Origin: Alphaproteobacteria bacterium
GTDB taxonomy: Bacteria; Pseudomonadota; Alphaproteobacteria; DSM-16000; Inquilinaceae
Reading direction: 5' to 3'
Assembly (NCBI GenBank): GCA_028281265.1
Contig: JANQKE010000054.1
Location: 1-54,516, forward strand
DNA: 54,516 nt
Part shown: positions 30,764 through 38,404 of the stretch, one piece after another
How positions within the stretch are numbered: the first letter of the stretch is position 1
How the letters are laid out: each line of letters starts with the position of its first letter
The notes under the pieces: generated by a model
The model's database searches: none
Told to the model about the DNA's origin: nothing
Seen by the model: only the letters and a program-made list of their open reading frames with translations
Program-made: the position numbers and the translations under genes

Positions 30764-32344
30764 GTGGCACCGCGCCCTTGCTATCGCCGTTCTTTCCGGC
30801 TCGCCTCGGTGGCGGTCGCGTGCGGTGTTTTGAGTTCACCGGCCGCCGCACAGCCGGACGCGGTGGACGCGGTGGACGCGGTGGACGCGGTGGACGCGGT
30901 GCGGATAGCGGACATCCTGCAAAGCCAATACCCCCGCATCTTGCGGTACGTCGTCCCCAGAGGCGGGCTGTCGGTGATACGGCAGATCAGGGTGGTGGAG
31001 CAGGACGAAGCCTTCGTCGCCTCGATCCCGCATCTGGTCTTCCGTGACCCTGACCCGAGCCTCGCACGCCAACTGCCGGTCCTGTCGTTGGACCCTTTTC
31101 AGGCCGTGGCGGAAACTGAGGGCGACGATCTGGTGCTGACCTATCAAGGACCTCTTGACGCCCATCTGTTGTGGCGAATGCCAGACCCTGAGAGGCTGGA
31201 CGGGCGATCGGTCAGCATCGATATCGACGTTGCCCACAGTGATGGAATCCAGCGTTTTGGACTTCAGGGCCGCGAGGCGATCAGCCTCTCGGTTGCCATG
31301 CACGATGTGGAGGTTCTCACCACCCGTCCTTTCGACGTCAATATCGGCGCCAATCTAAACCGGATCGACGTCCGAGCGGAGCATCGGGAAGTGGCCCCGG
31401 GAGTGATCGACGGATCGATCACCTACGAGTTCGCCGATATTGTCATCGCCGCCCAATGGCTGCTGCACGCCATAAGGGAACAGGATCCAACACCGGAGGA
31501 TCTGATCAGCCAGGTGCCGCTAGCGATCGACCGTATCGTGCTCGAAAGCCAGGCAAATAGACAGCATGACGATTGGCTGGATGTGTTTCGACCCTTATTG
31601 GACAGTCGGGGTAATACCTCCTTCAATCTGAATGAATTCACACCCGATATGGCGTTCGCAATGTTCGGCGACCCACCCCTTATCCGGGATGGACAGGCGA
31701 CATTGCAGATTGAAGGCCTGCGATTGCGCGACGGCGTCGCTCTGTCGACGATAGAGAGTGCGTTCGCAATAAGCGACGCCGGCACCGATGCCGTCGGGAT
31801 CGAGATAGAGGCAAGTTACAACGGGCTGCAACTGGCCTCAGACGCGGACGCCCTATCCGTCTTGCTGGCACCGCGTTCGTTTTCACTCGATTACGGCATC
31901 CGCGACCTCCCCGGCCGAAGCATGGCATCCCTGGTGGAACGGCTCGACGAAACCGGTTCGATCGACTGGGCCGAACTGACCGACAGCTTCGACTGGGCCG
32001 AGACGACAATCTTCCTCGAGGATTTTCAGATCGTCGCGCCGGGGTACACCGTGACCGGATTTGGGCAGTTTGTCGCTGACGGCCGATCGCCGACCGGGTT
32101 TTCCGGGCAGGCCGCGTTCGCCATGTCAGGACTCGACACCGTTACTCAAGCCCTTGCCGGCCATCCCGATCAGACGGAAGTCGTCGGCATGCTCACGATG
32201 ATGCAGGCGCTGGGGGATCGAACGGCCGCGGCCGAAGACGGCTCGCCGCTATGGAGCTACAGCTTCGTCTTTCAGCCCGACGGGTCGGTCACCCTCAACG
32301 GCTCCGACATCACCGCCCTGATCGGCTCCATGGTTCCGGCCTGA
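30764..32344 (+). CDS. Secreted protein of unknown function with (DAV)5 repeat
   Basis: A 526-residue protein with a GTG start behind GGGGAG and a signal peptide cleaved near AAAQ (residue ~30). Immediately after cleavage it carries five tandem Asp-Ala-Val units. The rest is rich in beta-strand-like alternation (LSLDPFQAVAETEGDDLVLTY, SVSIDIDVAHSDGIQRFGL, EDFQIVAPGYTVTGFGQFVAD), which suggests a periplasmic beta-rich protein, perhaps DUF2125-like, but I do not recognise it firmly. Base composition is visibly less GC-rich and codon use less biased than in the his block. It sits where infA/maf would be expected, so recent acquisition or rapid evolution is plausible. Confidence 0.7.
   Translation: MAPRPCYRRSFRLASVAVACGVLSSPAAAQPDAVDAVDAVDAVDAVRIADILQSQYPRILRYVVPRGGLSVIRQIRVVEQDEAFVASIPHLVFRDPDPSLARQLPVLSLDPFQAVAETEGDDLVLTYQGPLDAHLLWRMPDPERLDGRSVSIDIDVAHSDGIQRFGLQGREAISLSVAMHDVEVLTTRPFDVNIGANLNRIDVRAEHREVAPGVIDGSITYEFADIVIAAQWLLHAIREQDPTPEDLISQVPLAIDRIVLESQANRQHDDWLDVFRPLLDSRGNTSFNLNEFTPDMAFAMFGDPPLIRDGQATLQIEGLRLRDGVALSTIESAFAISDAGTDAVGIEIEASYNGLQLASDADALSVLLAPRSFSLDYGIRDLPGRSMASLVERLDETGSIDWAELTDSFDWAETTIFLEDFQIVAPGYTVTGFGQFVADGRSPTGFSGQAAFAMSGLDTVTQALAGHPDQTEVVGMLTMMQALGDRTAAAEDGSPLWSYSFVFQPDGSVTLNGSDITALIGSMVPA
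30857..30901 (+). repeat. In-frame 9-bp tandem repeat (five units)
   Basis: GACGCGGTG occurs five times in perfect tandem and encodes DAV x5 just after the signal peptide. Because the unit is nine bases, gain or loss of copies would change length without shifting the frame. Confidence 0.95.
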
Positions 32345-32515: not shown

Positions 32516-33787
32516 CTACGCGGCGGCTGCGGCGGGGCGTGCGATCAGGCTATCGCCCGTGCTGGCGTCGATCACCACTTGCCGCAGGACGCCCGCAGGC
32601 ACGGGGTCGATGAACCGGACCGGGGCGAAGGTCCGGGTGTGACCGGTGTTGCCCCGTTCGGTCAGCACCTCCTCGGTCCGGCCGACGCGGTCGGCGAGAT
32701 AGGCCTGCCGGCGGCGGTCCCCGGCCGCGCGCAACCGCACCGCACGTTCCTTGCGGACGCCCGGGTCGACCGCAGGCATGCGGGCCGCCGGGGTGCCCGG
32801 CCGTTCCGAATAGGGGAAGACGTGCAGATAGGTGAGCTCGCACGCATCGACGATCGACAGGGTGTTGTCGAACATCGCCTCGGTCTCGGTCGGAAAGCCG
32901 GCGATCAGATCGGCGCCGAAGACGATGTCCGGGCGCAGCCGCCGTGCCCGCTTCGTCAGGGCGATCGCGTCGGCGCGCAGATGCCGCCGCTTCATGCGCT
33001 TGAGGATCAGGTCGTCGCCCGCTTGCAAGGACAGGTGCAGGTGCGGCATCAGCCGCTCCTCCTCGGCGATCAGACGCCACAGATCGGCATCGATCTCCAC
33101 CACATCGATCGAGGACAGGCGCAGCCGCGGCAGCTCCGGCACCTGGGCCAGGAGCCGCCGCATCATCTGCCCCAGGGTCGGCCGGCCCGGCAGGTCCGGC
33201 CCGTAGGCGGTCAGATCGACCCCGGTCAGCACCACTTCCCGGGTGCCGGCCGCGACCAGGCCGCGGACCTGGCGGACGATCTCCCCGATCGGCACCGACC
33301 GGCTGTTCCCGCGACCGTAGGGGATGATGCAGAAGGTGCAGCGGTGGTCGCAGCCGTTCTGGACCTGCAGGAAGGCGCGGGTACGCTGTTCGAACCCCGG
33401 CAGCAGGTGGGCCGCGGTCTCCCGCACCGCCATGATGTCGTCGACGGCCACCCTTTCGGTGCGGTCCGGAGCCCACGCCGCCGGCGTCATCTTCTCCGCA
33501 TTGCCGACGACCCGGTCGACCTCGTCCATGGCGGCGAAGCCGTCCGGATCGATCTGGGCGGCACAGCCGGTGACGACGATGCGAGCCTCCGGCCGATCCC
33601 GGCGCAGCCTGCGGATTGCCCGCCGGGCGGTCCGCTCGGCCTCCTTGGTCACGGCACAGGTGTTGACGATCACCGTATCGGTATGGCCGGCGCGGCGGGC
33701 GAGATCGGCCATCACCTCGCTTTCGTAAGCGTTGAGGCGGCAGCCGAAGGTGACGGCGGTCGGGCCGGCCGGGACGGGATCGGGCAT
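32516..33787 (-). CDS. mtaB: tRNA t6A37 methylthiotransferase MtaB
   Basis: Radical-SAM enzyme that methylthiolates N6-threonylcarbamoyladenosine-37 of ANN-decoding tRNAs. The 423-residue protein has the N-terminal UPF0004 domain with Cys16, Cys44 and Cys75 (FGCRLN, NTCAVT, TGCAAQ), and the radical-SAM CDHRCTFC cluster motif (Cys146, Cys150, Cys153). HLHLSLQAGDDLILKRMKR, ADLIAGFPTET and a C-terminal TRAM-like tail follow. The FGCRLN and ERTARRAIRR pattern fits MtaB rather than MiaB. It follows the DoxX terminator on the same strand and stands alone. Confidence 0.94.
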   Translation of the reverse strand: MPDPVPAGPTAVTFGCRLNAYESEVMADLARRAGHTDTVIVNTCAVTKEAERTARRAIRRLRRDRPEARIVVTGCAAQIDPDGFAAMDEVDRVVGNAEKMTPAAWAPDRTERVAVDDIMAVRETAAHLLPGFEQRTRAFLQVQNGCDHRCTFCIIPYGRGNSRSVPIGEIVRQVRGLVAAGTREVVLTGVDLTAYGPDLPGRPTLGQMMRRLLAQVPELPRLRLSSIDVVEIDADLWRLIAEEERLMPHLHLSLQAGDDLILKRMKRRHLRADAIALTKRARRLRPDIVFGADLIAGFPTETEAMFDNTLSIVDACELTYLHVFPYSERPGTPAARMPAVDPGVRKERAVRLRAAGDRRRQAYLADRVGRTEEVLTERGNTGHTRTFAPVRFIDPVPAGVLRQVVIDASTGDSLIARPAAAAA

Positions 33788-33818
33788 GGCCGGAGATATA
33801 GCCGCCGACGGGCACCCC

Positions 33819-33857
33819 AAAAAAGCGGGGCGGCATGCCCGTTTGGCATACCACCCC
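33819..33857 (-). terminator. Intrinsic terminator of the DUF2282-DUF692-DUF2063-DoxX operon
   Basis: Read on the minus strand, a 13-bp stem (GGGGTGGTATGCC with GGCATGCCGCCCC, including two G-U pairs) is followed by GC and six T. The G-U pairs exist only on that strand, so the hairpin is specific to minus-strand transcripts. It lies between the doxX stop and the mtaB start. Confidence 0.85.
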
Positions 33858-33882
33858 AAGGTCGAGGGATCAGGAAAACGGA

Positions 33883-34383
33883 TCAGCGCAGGAGCCGGCC
33901 GATCCCGTAATCGGCGCTCAGCCGGCCCGGACCCAGCAGCAGGATGGCGAGGCCGACCAGCATCCAGGGCACCTGTTCGGCCGCGATGGCGTAGGCCCCA
34001 CCGATCACGAAGAAGATCGTCGCCGCCATGAGGCCGAGGCCGAGGCCGGCCAGCCGGCCGAACAGCCCGAGGATCAGGAGCACCGGCAGCACCAGCTCCG
34101 CCGTGGTGGTGACGACGGCCGCCTGGCCGGGGCTGAGCAACGGCAGCGGGTGCTCGTACTGGAACAGGAAGGACTGGCTGCCCCAGTTCTCCAGCCGCGC
34201 CTGGCCCGCATTCCAGAACGGCAGGGCGAGGAAGAACCGGGCCAGCAGCATCACGCCGGCCCCGATCCAGGCGACGGTGGTGCCGTACATCTCCCACGGC
34301 GTGGGCAGGTTGAGGTAGCGCTTGTACAGGCTGACGATCGGGTTGCCGCCGGATGGGCCGGCGGTGGTGGTCGAAGCGGCCAT
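33883..34383 (-). CDS. DoxX-family membrane protein of the bufferin-type operon
   Basis: A 166-residue inner-membrane protein with about four hydrophobic segments: GAGVMLLARFFLALPFW, TTTAELVLPVLLILGLFGRLA, LGLMAATIFFVIGGAYAIAA and VPWMLVGLAILLLGPGRL. DoxX-like proteins are commonly the last gene of DUF2282/DUF692/DUF2063 clusters, and the gene follows the DUF2063 gene with a 29-base gap. Its role there is not established; an oxidoreductase-linked or membrane-anchoring function is possible. A terminator ends the operon. Confidence 0.85.
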   Translation of the reverse strand: MAASTTTAGPSGGNPIVSLYKRYLNLPTPWEMYGTTVAWIGAGVMLLARFFLALPFWNAGQARLENWGSQSFLFQYEHPLPLLSPGQAAVVTTTAELVLPVLLILGLFGRLAGLGLGLMAATIFFVIGGAYAIAAEQVPWMLVGLAILLLGPGRLSADYGIGRLLR

Positions 34384-34412
34384 GGGTCTGAGCCTCCTTG
34401 AGGGTCTGCGGA

Positions 34413-35219
34413 TCAGGGGGCGGGCGGCGTCAGCGTCGCGAACAGCCCGCGGGCCAGCGCCGTGGTCAGCCCGCCTTGCAGGTCGAAGCCGGTATCGGCC
34501 TCGACGGCGGTCTGCGCCGCTTCGGCCAAGGTCAGGCCTTGGTCGAGGGCGGTCAGGAAGGCGAACAGGCCGAGCCCGATCGCCTCGACGCGGACGTGGC
34601 TCCCGGTGCGGAAGATCAAGGTGTAGTCCGGCCCCGACAGCCCCTTGAAGGACGGGGCCTCACTGCCCTGATGGGCGTTCCAGATCCGGAAGACCGGATG
34701 GGCGGAACCGACCAGCCGCACCGAGGGGCCGAGGCCGAACTGCACGGCCGACAGGTCCTGGGCCGGAACGGCGGCCAGTCTCCCGGCGGCGACGGGCTCG
34801 GCATCCGGGGCGAAGTAGCTCTGCGTCCGGGCCCATTCGAGCCGCGCCATGTCCGGCAGGTACGGTACCGACTGCGCCGGCGGGAAATGCGCCAGGAACG
34901 TCGACATCTCCCCGCCATAGGCCAGCAGTTGCGGCACCATCGGGGGATGGATCTGGATGTACTGCCGGGCGGCGAACCGGAAGAACTCCTCCCCCACCAG
35001 CCGTTGGATCACCGGGTAGGTGGTCGCCAGGGCCTGCGCCAGGGAGGCGCGGGTGTTGTTGCGGTAGATCTCGAACCGGTCGTTCGGTTCCACCGCCCCG
35101 CCCAGGATCAACGCCGTCGCATCGACGATGTCGCCGGTCAACAGGCCGCGCTTGAACCGGGCCTGCAGGTCGGCGAGGGGCGGGGTGCCCCGGGTGCCGG
35201 GGGCGGCTTTCTCGGTCAT
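34413..35219 (-). CDS. DUF2063 protein, partner of the DUF692 enzyme (BufC-like)
   Basis: A 268-residue protein. Its N-terminal ~100 residues match the DUF2063 DNA-binding-like fold ([51 protein letters not shown]). The C-terminal half is a second alpha/beta domain. In characterised systems such proteins bind the precursor peptide and deliver it to the multinuclear iron oxidase (DUF692). The start overlaps the end of the DUF692 gene by ATGA, which implies coupled translation of the two partners. No signal peptide, so it is cytoplasmic. Confidence 0.88.
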
Positions 35220-36223
35220 CGCATCACCTCCTGCACGTCCGGCACCGGCACGTCCGGCACGCCTGGTACCGGGCGTGCCGGCACGGCGGCCTGCCTGGCC
35301 AGCAGCCGGTCGGCGATCGCCGCCTCGGCCAACAGGACGGGCAGGTCGGGGACGTTGGTATCCCATTCCATCAGCGTCGGCACCGGGCCGAGCCGTGCGA
35401 GCACCCGGGTGAACAGGTCCCACACCGCCTGGTCGACCTGGGCGCCGTGATCGTCGATCAGGATCGTCCGCGCCTCCCCCCGGACGTCGAGGAAAGTGCG
35501 CACGAAATGTCCGGCGACATGCACCTCCTCGACCCGATCGAGCGGCAGCGCCGCGACATAGGCGTCGGCGTCGAAGGCATGGTTGTGGGCGCTGACATGG
35601 ATGTTGTTGACGTCGAGCAGAAGCGCGCAGCCGGTGCGCCGGGCGGCCTCGGCCATGAACTCCCATTCCGGCATCTCCGAATGGGCGAAGGCGACGTAGC
35701 TCGACGGATTCTCGATCAGCATCTGCCGGCCGAACACGCTTTGCGCGTGATCGATGTTCCGGCACAGGATCGCCAGCGCCTCTTCGGTGTAGGGCAGCGG
35801 CAGCAGATCGTTGAGATAGACCCCCTCGGCCACCGACCAGGACACGTGCTCGGAGATCAGGCCCGGCTCGATCCGGTCGAACAGCGCCTTGAGCCGGGCC
35901 AGATGGTCGCGGTCGAGCCCTTCGGCCGAACCCAGGGACAGACCGACGCCGTGGCAACTCAGCGGATAGTCCCTGCGGACCAGCTCCAGCGCGCGCAGCC
36001 GCGGTCCGCCGGGGGCGAGATAGTTTTCGGAGTGGATCTCCAGCCAGCCGACATCCGGAGCCTCCAACAGCACCTGGTCGATATGCGGCTGGCGCAGACC
36101 GATGCCCGCCCGGGCCGGGATCGCATGCCGGCCGAACCGGGCATGGCTGGCCGGATAGGGGGGCGGCTCGATCACCGCCCGTTCGGTCGCGGCCGGGACC
36201 GCGCTGTCGATCGGGACGGGCAT
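35216..36223 (-). CDS. Multinuclear non-heme iron oxidase (DUF692/MNIO, BufB-like)
   Basis: Putative peptide-modifying oxidase of the TIM-barrel DUF692 family, 335 residues. Candidate metal ligands lie in [68 protein letters not shown] and MEWDTNVPD. This is the full set of His/Asp/Glu blocks seen in MNIO enzymes. Known members convert Cys of precursor peptides to oxazolone/thioamide or thiooxazole groups. The likely substrate is the DUF2282 peptide encoded upstream, and the partner is DUF2063, coupled by ATGA. The last ~25 residues are a Pro/Val/Asp-rich tail ([13 protein letters not shown]). Confidence 0.92.
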
Positions 36224-36306
36224 GGGACCGTTCCTTGAACCGGTGTGGACGGGGTGGGCGGCCGGAGCGGGGCGCAGGGCGCGCGCCGCTCCGGCTCGAT
36301 CCGACC

Positions 36307-36600
36307 TTAGGACGCGAAGGCCGGGTTCACGCCCTCGAACGGCTCCAGCGAGCCGCTTTCGGCCGCGCAAGTGCCGGCCGGGACCAGCTTCCACTCGCCG
36401 CCATCATAGTCGGTGGTCGACTGACCGGCGCAGGAATGGGTACCGGCGGCGTTGGCGCAGTCGTTTTCGCCGGCCAGGGAGATACCGTAGCACTTCTCCA
36501 TGTCCTGGGCGACGGCGTCGACCGGGGCCAGGACGGCGGCGGCGGAGACGGCACCGGCGACGGCAGCGGCGACGGTCAAAGCGGTCGTGGTGTTGGTCAT
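36307..36600 (-). CDS. DUF2282 secreted Cys-containing peptide, bufferin-like precursor
   Basis: A 97-residue protein with an N-terminal signal peptide ([19 protein letters not shown], cleaved near AVAQ). The mature part has four cysteines at 37, 48, 57 and 78 in the family pattern [23 protein letters not shown] and [13 protein letters not shown]2282 peptides are the substrates of DUF692/DUF2063 enzymes and, after modification, bind copper (bufferins). The start is set by a good AGAGGAA ribosome site eight bases upstream; a longer frame starts inside the control region. It is first in the four-gene operon. Function here is inferred from family and context. Confidence 0.9.
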
Positions 36601-37015
36601 CGTCTGTTTCCTCTGAAGCTCGAGTGGGCCCCCGTGCCCGAGGGCTGAGCGAGAGGTAACGAGCCGCCCGATCAAACGGAAATAACGGTCCCGTCAGGCG
36701 CAGTCACACTGGCGTGACAGCGGCGAGAGCACCGGTGGCGCAAGTGCGGCCACCCGTCCGACGCAACGATCGGTCCCGCTTCGACCGGCGGCGTGGAACC
36801 GATGGGTCGATCCGCCTGCATTCGGCGTATGTCACTTGCGCCCCGGCGGACGGGTGGAAATGCTGGACCTCAGACCGTATAGCGGCTTGCATGGGATCGG
36901 TTGGGGCCGGGTCTGGCGATCGCGCGGCGGCGGCGCTGCCCCCGGTATCAAGGCGGATCCCCCCAAAGGACCGCATCAGGGGCGGTGGCAACGCGTTTTA
37001 GGAAGGGATCGACCC
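36601..37015. other. Divergent region between bufferin-like operon and class II DAHP synthase
   Basis: A 415-base region that must hold both promoters. It contains two complementary pairs in interlocked order: 36737-36746 with 36833-36842, and 36750-36760 with 36847-36857. A small GTCAC/GTGAC hairpin is at 36703-36718. I found no coding frame with family support. Confidence 0.55.
36737..36857 (+). promoter_or_regulatory. Interlocked complementary segments in the aroG leader
   Basis: GGCGCAAGTG (36737-36746) complements CACTTGCGCC (36833-36842). CCACCCGTCCG (36750-36760) complements CGGACGGGTGG (36847-36857). The order is A-B-A'-B', so an RNA could form a pseudoknot or two mutually exclusive hairpins. 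It lies about 160 bases before the DAHP synthase start. Whether it is transcribed is unknown. Confidence 0.4.
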
Positions 37016-38404
37016 ATGGCGAATGGCTGGACGCCCGATAGCTGGCGCACCCGACCGGCCAAGCAGATGCCGGCCTATCCGGATCACGCGGCCCTGGCGA
37101 CCGCCGAGGCGCAGCTGACCGCCTACCCGCCACTGGTCTTCGCCGGAGAGGCCCGCTCCCTCACGCAGCAGCTCGCCAAGGTCGCTTCGGGGGAAGCGTT
37201 CCTGCTTCAGGGCGGCGACTGCGCCGAGAGCTTCCAGGAGTTTCACCCCGACAAGATCCGCGATACCTTCCGCGTGCTGCTGCAGATGGCGATCGTGCTG
37301 ACCTTCGGCGGCCACATGCCGGTGGTCAAGGTCGGCCGGATGGCCGGTCAGTTCGCCAAGCCGCGATCGTCGGATGACGAAACCATCGACGGGGTGACCC
37401 TGCCATCCTACCGCGGCGACATCGTCAACGGCTTCGAGTTCGACGAAGGGTCGCGGGTGCCGGACCCCGGGCGGATGGTGCAAGCCTACAATCAGGCGGC
37501 CGCGACGCTGAACCTGCTGCGGGCCTTCGCGCAGGGCGGTTACGCCGATCTGCATCAGGTGCATCAGTGGAATCTCGGCTTCGTCGGCACCAACGGCAAG
37601 GGCTCGGACTACGAGGATCTGGCCAACCGGCTGGACGAGAGCCTGCAGTTCATGGCCGCCTGCGGCATCACCGCGGAGACCACGCCATCGATCCGGGAGA
37701 CCGATTTCTTCACCTCCCACGAGGCGCTGCTGCTGCCCTATGAACAGGCGCTGACCCGCATCGACAGCACCTCGGGCGACTGGTACGACGTCTCCGCCCA
37801 CATGCTGTGGATCGGCGACCGCACCCGCCAGCCCGACCACGCCCATATCGAGTTTCTGCGCGGGGTGAAGAACCCGATCGGGCTGAAATGCGGGCCGACG
37901 CTCGACGGCGGCGATCTCTTGCGTCTGATCGACATCCTGAACCCGGCCAACGAGCCCGGGCGGCTGACCCTGATCGCGCGCATGGGCTCGGACAAGGTGG
38001 AGAGCCATCTGCCGGCCCTGATCCGGGCGGTGCAGCGGGAAGGGCGGACGGTGGTCTGGTCCTGCGATCCCATGCACGGCAACACGATCAAGTCGTCGAC
38101 CGGGTTCAAGACCCGGCCGTTCGACCGGATCCTGACGGAAGTCTCGCGCTTCTTCGACGTGCATCGGGCGGAAGGCACGCATCCGGGGGGGGTGCATTTC
38201 GAGCTGACCGGCCAGGACGTGACCGAATGCACCGGCGGCGCCCAGGCGATCACCGACGACGCGCTGAGCCTGCGCTACCACACCGCCTGCGACCCGCGTC
38301 TAAACGCCAACCAGGCGCTGGAGCTAGCCTTCCTGCTGGCCAACAATCTGCGGAACAGCCGGGCCGACCTCGACCGCCAGCGCCGCGCCGCGGCGGCCGA
38401 GTGA
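37016..38404 (+). CDS. aroG: Class II 3-deoxy-7-phosphoheptulonate synthase
   Basis: First enzyme of the shikimate pathway: PEP plus erythrose 4-phosphate to DAHP. The 462-residue protein is the plant/Mycobacterium-like class II (AroA-II) type. Landmarks: [12 protein letters not shown] with metal-ligand Cys69, [58 protein letters not shown] and [15 protein letters not shown] with further metal ligands. A GGAAGGG ribosome site precedes the ATG at 37016. An upstream in-frame ATG at 36836 would put the interlocked repeats into the coding region and adds non-conserved sequence. The nicotinate phosphoribosyltransferase gene follows after 64 bases. Confidence 0.96.

Follow-up and report, generated by a model that had tools for sequence, protein, structure and literature searches.

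A bufferin-1 operon and its upstream palindrome in an alphaproteobacterial contig

The window analysed here, the whole 54,516-nucleotide stretch of contig JANQKE010000054.1 from an alphaproteobacterium of the Inquilinaceae, carries a four-gene unit that is assigned, from its gene content and family scores and with a probability of about 0.88, to the bufferin-1 (GIG-type) operons. As such it is an ordinary locus, one more member of a large and already described class. The sole novel reading of the locus is that of a regulon marked by a palindrome upstream of the precursor gene; this palindrome and a hairpin behind the same gene are modest additions.

Operon layout and identity

The unit lies on the minus strand and is transcribed in the order bufA, bufB, bufC and doxX. 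Its components are:

36307..36600, minus strand: bufA, 97 aa, predicted DUF2282 bufferin-1 precursor
35216..36223, minus strand: bufB, 335 aa, predicted MNIO (DUF692) bufferin maturase
34413..35219, minus strand: bufC, 268 aa, DUF2063 partner protein of the MNIO (PME type 1)
33883..34383, minus strand: doxX, 166 aa, DoxX-family membrane protein
33826..33858, minus strand: intrinsic terminator, 14-pair stem followed by the T-run CTTTTTTGGG, preceding a further minus-strand gene

A sequence-only reading of this DNA had proposed a unit of DUF2282, DUF692, DUF2063 and DoxX genes, and all four are present, each above its Pfam cut-off: bufA matches DUF2282 with 88 bits (cut-off 22.4), bufB matches MbnB_TglH_ChrH (DUF692) with 352.6 bits (cut-off 25), bufC matches DUF2063 with 77.4 bits (cut-off 27.2) and doxX matches DoxX with 45.1 bits (cut-off 23.6). 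The name of bufferin-type operon, given in the same reading, also holds, as BufB scores 378 bits against the NCBIfam model NF050167, ‘MNIO family bufferin maturase’ (cut-off 310), and the four genes correspond to the core of bufferin clusters described in PMC12452194, namely those for a precursor, an MNIO, a DUF2063 protein and a DoxX protein. The expected ATGA coupling of the DUF2063 gene is seen in the overlap of the bufB stop with the bufC start, and the terminator, read from 33858 to 33826, is one-sided as had been noted, its 14 pairs and T-run serving the minus strand only. The extent first given for the unit, 33883-36600, is right for the genes and leaves the terminator outside its bounds; with the terminator included the unit spans 33826-36600.

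The scores for related classes fall below their cut-offs. BufA reaches 27.3 of the 60 bits set for the BufA2 equivalog NF050166 and has four cysteines, not the 6 or 12 of a bufferin-2 precursor. Against the oxazolin (hvf) equivalogs, the window proteins reach 230.2 of 360 bits for HvfB, 45.2 of 142 for HvfC and 33.4 of 80 for HvfX, the last of these being the score of DoxX, and EGKCG is absent from BufA. The shortfall for HvfC and HvfX is as expected of a different subclass. A search of the organism's own genome returned a single match each for MNIO and DUF2282, and no second bufferin cluster was found there.

A profile search of genome contigs provided a sample of at least 80 BufB loci. Beside BufB in 91 loci, same-strand genes were found for BufA in 88, BufC in 90 and DoxX in 75, some of the missing partners being accounted for by contig ends. 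Within the same taxonomic family, 10 of 17 genomes have a BufB match. Among the 75 DoxX sequences, R49 (75/75), E96 (74), R110 (73) and D158 (73) are conserved; the DoxX of the window has S59, K63 and P129 where A, R and G, respectively, are usual. The part played by DoxX had been described as still open, with which the literature agrees, HvfX being termed ‘yet uncharacterized’ in PMC13419390. In Marinicella sp. W31 (locus L081, 4877-6232) DUF2063 and DoxX share one open frame, a fusion that would fit DoxX acting next to the maturation proteins; this is a weak hint, since it is a single case and no such fusion was found in the other 32 genomes of that taxonomic family.

The precursor and its proposed maturation

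BufA carries cysteines at positions 37, 48, 57 and 78, and the four columns are cysteine in 85 of 88 aligned BufA sequences, in agreement with the DUF2282 peptide with four cysteines that had been read from the DNA. As to the signal peptide claimed for this protein, approximately residues 1-32 resemble one by eye, with a hydrophobic stretch and an AVA-Q site. The first ten residues contain no Lys or Arg, as in 6 of 86 BufA sequences, a point that weighs against the bufferin-1 reading. A ribosome site, AGAGGA, lies ahead of the ATG.

Buf1 precursors are described as retaining four cysteines, of which the central two are modified and the outer two form a disulphide (PMC12452194), and thiooxazoles and a link to copper are reported for the bufferin class (PMC12668002). 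By analogy, BufA would be made with a Sec signal peptide and would be acted upon in the cytoplasm by BufB, the MNIO iron enzyme, and its partner BufC. The central Cys48 and Cys57 would be converted to 5-thiooxazoles, and Cys37 and Cys78 would remain available for a disulphide. After modification the peptide would be exported and would chelate excess periplasmic copper, with DoxX occupying a supporting role in the inner membrane.

A hairpin behind bufA

The space between the first two genes contains a further element:

36259..36298, minus strand: stem-loop between bufA and bufB, z -2.39, no T-run behind it

Across 86 loci, the mean fold z is -1.51 for the 90 nt that surround the bufA stop, with values below -2 in 31 and below -3 in 15, compared with a mean of -0.18, three values below -2 and none below -3 in 86 control windows placed further downstream, mostly inside bufB. 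The letters of the hairpin vary between loci, such that it is the fold that recurs and not the sequence. Loci of the same family are mixed: four, among them that of the window, have z between -2.4 and -2.9, and five others lie between -0.9 and 1.0. Other peptide operons show comparable behaviour and, by analogy with these, the hairpin may limit read-through or protect the bufA mRNA. In the proposed scheme it probably causes precursor to be produced in excess of enzyme, which suggests a simple means of keeping the amounts of the two apart.

The maturase and its C-terminal tail

The BufB barrel aligns to the di-iron MNIO structure 3bww (E 1e-36), and also to MbnB and to 8hci, which we take to be a TglH-type entry. 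The AlphaFold2 model has a mean pLDDT of 85.4. Forty-two columns are invariant across 35 MNIOs, including (in BufB numbering) H91, H126, E171, N207, H235, D257, H259 and E286; in line with the full metal-ligand blocks ascribed earlier to the DUF692 protein, the catalytic residues are kept. Aligned through 3bww, D257 and H259 appear to correspond to D242 and H244 of the HvfB D-x-H motif (PMC13419390).

Beyond the barrel, BufB ends in a tail that had been singled out as rich in Pro, Val and Asp and unexpected for the fold:

35219..35299, minus strand: BufB variable tail, residues 309-335, P/V/D-rich, coinciding with a tandem DNA repeat

The tail is present, and its composition is as claimed; its standing as something special did not survive comparison, given that it is repeat-derived, variable and modelled with low pLDDT. 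A functional module, for example an arm that docks BufC or the membrane, is very unlikely. In its favour, the 27 residues past residue 308 compare with a median of 13 in 90 complete relatives (one truncated locus was set aside), and among these 90 tails that of the window ranks sixth in length and first in P+V+D fraction (0.56). Against it, the underlying DNA is imperfectly repeated in tandem (35225-35285, 24-nt unit, 2.5 copies, 78% matches), its modelled pLDDT is 53-68 compared with at least 86 in most blocks of the barrel, same-family relatives of 50-72% identity have unrelated endings of 13-19 residues, and five longer tails of 65-67 aa from Mesorhizobium and Ensifer share no kinship with it. 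Its absence in relatives, the repeat and the low pLDDT likewise rule out a conserved feature of BufB. The tail is a lineage-specific extension and not a domain, and the simplest reading is that it arose from the repeat and has no special role. Its last codons carry the ribosome site of bufC (start region GGAGGTGATGCGATGA).

The five longer tails (L026, L030, L038, L041 and L046) are related to each other through a PVLAAF/PALAAI core. Elsewhere in the window, at 30764-30900 on the plus strand, another short-repeat expansion in coding DNA forms a repeated AVD stretch that opens a 526 aa ORF, predicted to encode an exported protein.

A palindrome upstream of bufA

The region ahead of the operon contains a candidate regulatory element:

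36703..36718, no strand assigned: palindrome GTCAC-N6-GTGAC, GTCACGCCAGTGTGAC, candidate operator, 118 nt before the bufA ATG

With up to two mismatches and at -160 to -60 from start codons chosen by script, this palindrome is found in 25 of 84 bufA upstream regions compared with 2.2 expected, the maximum in 60 dinucleotide shuffles being 8; two control patterns gave 2 and 4 in the same regions. Two loci (L011 and L018) were left out of this test as near-copies of L006. The motif was first noticed in same-family loci, which provide six of the 27 palindrome sites listed, and the remaining 21 come from loci that were not used to see it; one of the 27 (L028) is a GTAACC box.

Known promoter types were also sought. 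In the window, the sigma-F promoter (GTAACC-N16-CGAA, up to two mismatches) gave 35 matches compared with 27.5 expected, and the candidate near bufA, at 36656, was rejected as it lies on the other strand; on the bufA strand, the best sigma-F box within 250 nt has three mismatches. A sigma-70 scan of 33000-37500 returned no promoter, and NrsF was not found in the organism's own genome. Sigma-F/NrsF control, an optional trait that occurs in a portion of Buf1 clusters and is known from Caulobacter, is not seen at this locus, which weighs against the bufferin-1 reading. In six other loci (L051, L070, L077, L085, L094 and L097) the palindrome lies 4-11 bp before a GTAAC box, and NrsF genes occur near some palindrome loci, so its presence does not exclude control by sigma-F elsewhere.

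In the search for a cognate regulator, 44 of the 86 ORFs flanking 16 palindrome loci were scanned, among which HSP20 (5), NrsF (4), SDR (3) and sigma-70 region 2 (2) were commonest and no shared regulator was found. The own genome has 31 matches to CopR-type response regulators, none over the cut-off (best 252.5 of 279.2 bits), and the exact palindrome was present at none of eight CopR-type regulator loci examined; a one-mismatch copy in L102 is 870 nt away from the regulator gene and was taken as chance. In one same-family genome (G013, L154, 848-2184), a palindrome core lies between genes for a TetR-type protein, a possible regulator, and a DUF417 protein. The consulted portion of PMC5413113, which deals with related operons, contains no mention of a palindrome or inverted repeat.

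Possible links to methionine repair

The exact 16-mer occurs five times in the 4.33 Mb of the own genome, compared with once for a reversed control. In addition to the copy before bufA, one lies 117 nt ahead of an msrB-msrA pair (SelR and PMSR domains), one lies 100 nt before a DUF3179 gene and is overlapped by a second copy with one mismatch, one lies about 125 nt before cysS, and the fifth is in or close to an ORF that has no Pfam match. The chance that three of the four other exact sites would fall near a gene start is estimated at 0.0004 to 0.003, for the chosen start codons and an assumed 4000 genes. In G007, which belongs to another genus, the palindrome again precedes bufA (-118, two mismatches), msrB (-82, one mismatch) and the DUF3179 ortholog (-93, exact). 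The DUF3179 ortholog of G013 has a copy at -52 with two mismatches and its msrB has none, and that of G010 has only a two-mismatch match at about -180. Within the taxonomic family the msr link is confined to these two genera, a site with at most one mismatch preceding msrB in 2 of the 16 same-family genomes with an msrB match.

These observations are consistent with a tentative but possible model in which the bufferin-1 operons of lineages lacking sigma-F and NrsF belong to a separate regulon, marked by GTCAC-N6-GTGAC about 80-118 nt before the start and shared with the cytoplasmic methionine sulfoxide reductases (msrB-msrA) and a DUF3179 gene. The palindrome would also occur in some sigma-F-type promoters, 4-11 bp before GTAAC, and two unrelated regulators would have converged on the same wiring of bufferins to methionine repair. 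Such wiring has parallels. YedY is a subunit of a methionine sulfoxide reductase. In Caulobacter, sigma-F is reported to control two bufferin operons together with CC2748, annotated as YedY (PMC3511200). RpoE2 of Haemophilus is reported to control msrAB and an operon for DoxX, COG3767, COG3220 and DUF2063 proteins, a similar SigE regulon being described in Neisseria (PMC7907618), and in E. coli one palindromic box ahead of hiuH-msrPQ serves both CusR and HprR (PMC9302797). In the light of these regulons, a palindrome linking bufferin and msr genes makes sense.

An alternative scenario is that the palindrome is a chance or housekeeping feature and that the operon is driven by an unrecognised promoter. 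The failure of the CopR-type and neighbourhood scans to name a regulator would agree with this, as would the behaviour of a looser form of the motif, which in three genomes has 6, 7 and 11 sites compared with 2, 1 and 5 for the reversed pattern, such that many sites must be due to chance, several of them lying inside ORFs. However, neither the excess over expectation and shuffles upstream of bufA nor the 21 sites from loci outside the discovery set is readily explained in this way, and chance is considered somewhat unlikely. A further scenario accepts the regulon and proposes that bufferin mainly defends against hypochlorite and similar oxidants, copper binding being one aspect of its function, and that the operon belongs to an envelope methionine-repair regulon. 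The palindrome common to bufA and msrB-msrA in two genera points in this direction, as do the Haemophilus RpoE2 (PMC7907618) and Caulobacter sigma-F (PMC3511200) regulons, in which such operons and methionine sulfoxide reductase genes are controlled together. Nevertheless, the sparse occurrence of the site before msrB within the family and the copper response measured for related operons in Legionella (PMC5413113) render this scenario unlikely. Should the palindrome be an operator, it would offer a starting point for understanding how bufferins are switched on in the absence of sigma-F, would make DUF3179 a likely stress protein and would lend weight to a role for bufferins in combined copper and oxidant stress.

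Comparison with known systems

The bufferin-1 operon CC3254-CC3257 of Caulobacter has the same order of DUF2282, DUF692, DUF2063 and DoxX genes and is described as controlled by sigma-F and an NrsF-type antagonist from a GTAACC-N16-CGAA promoter (PMC3511200). The window operon has the palindrome instead: a box of this type is missing from the bufA strand, and the genome yielded no NrsF. The GIG operons of Cupriavidus and Legionella (lpg2105-2108) contain the same four families; their response to gold and copper has been measured (PMC5413113).

The palindrome shares the 14-bp T-x-ACA-N4-TGT-x-A layout of the E. coli CusR/HprR box (PMC9302797), reading TCACA-N4-TGTGA here, with the window copy departing at one more base (TCACG). 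This likeness is a resemblance only, as no response regulator of the genome reaches the copR-type cut-off. The hvf (oxazolin) operon of Haemophilus differs in the EGKCG repeats of its precursor and in its HvfB, HvfC and HvfX equivalogs, below whose cut-offs the window proteins fall. Despite these differences, it has, as here, an MNIO, a DUF2063 partner and a DoxX-like protein, HvfX (PMC13419390), and is co-regulated with msrAB by RpoE2 (PMC7907618).
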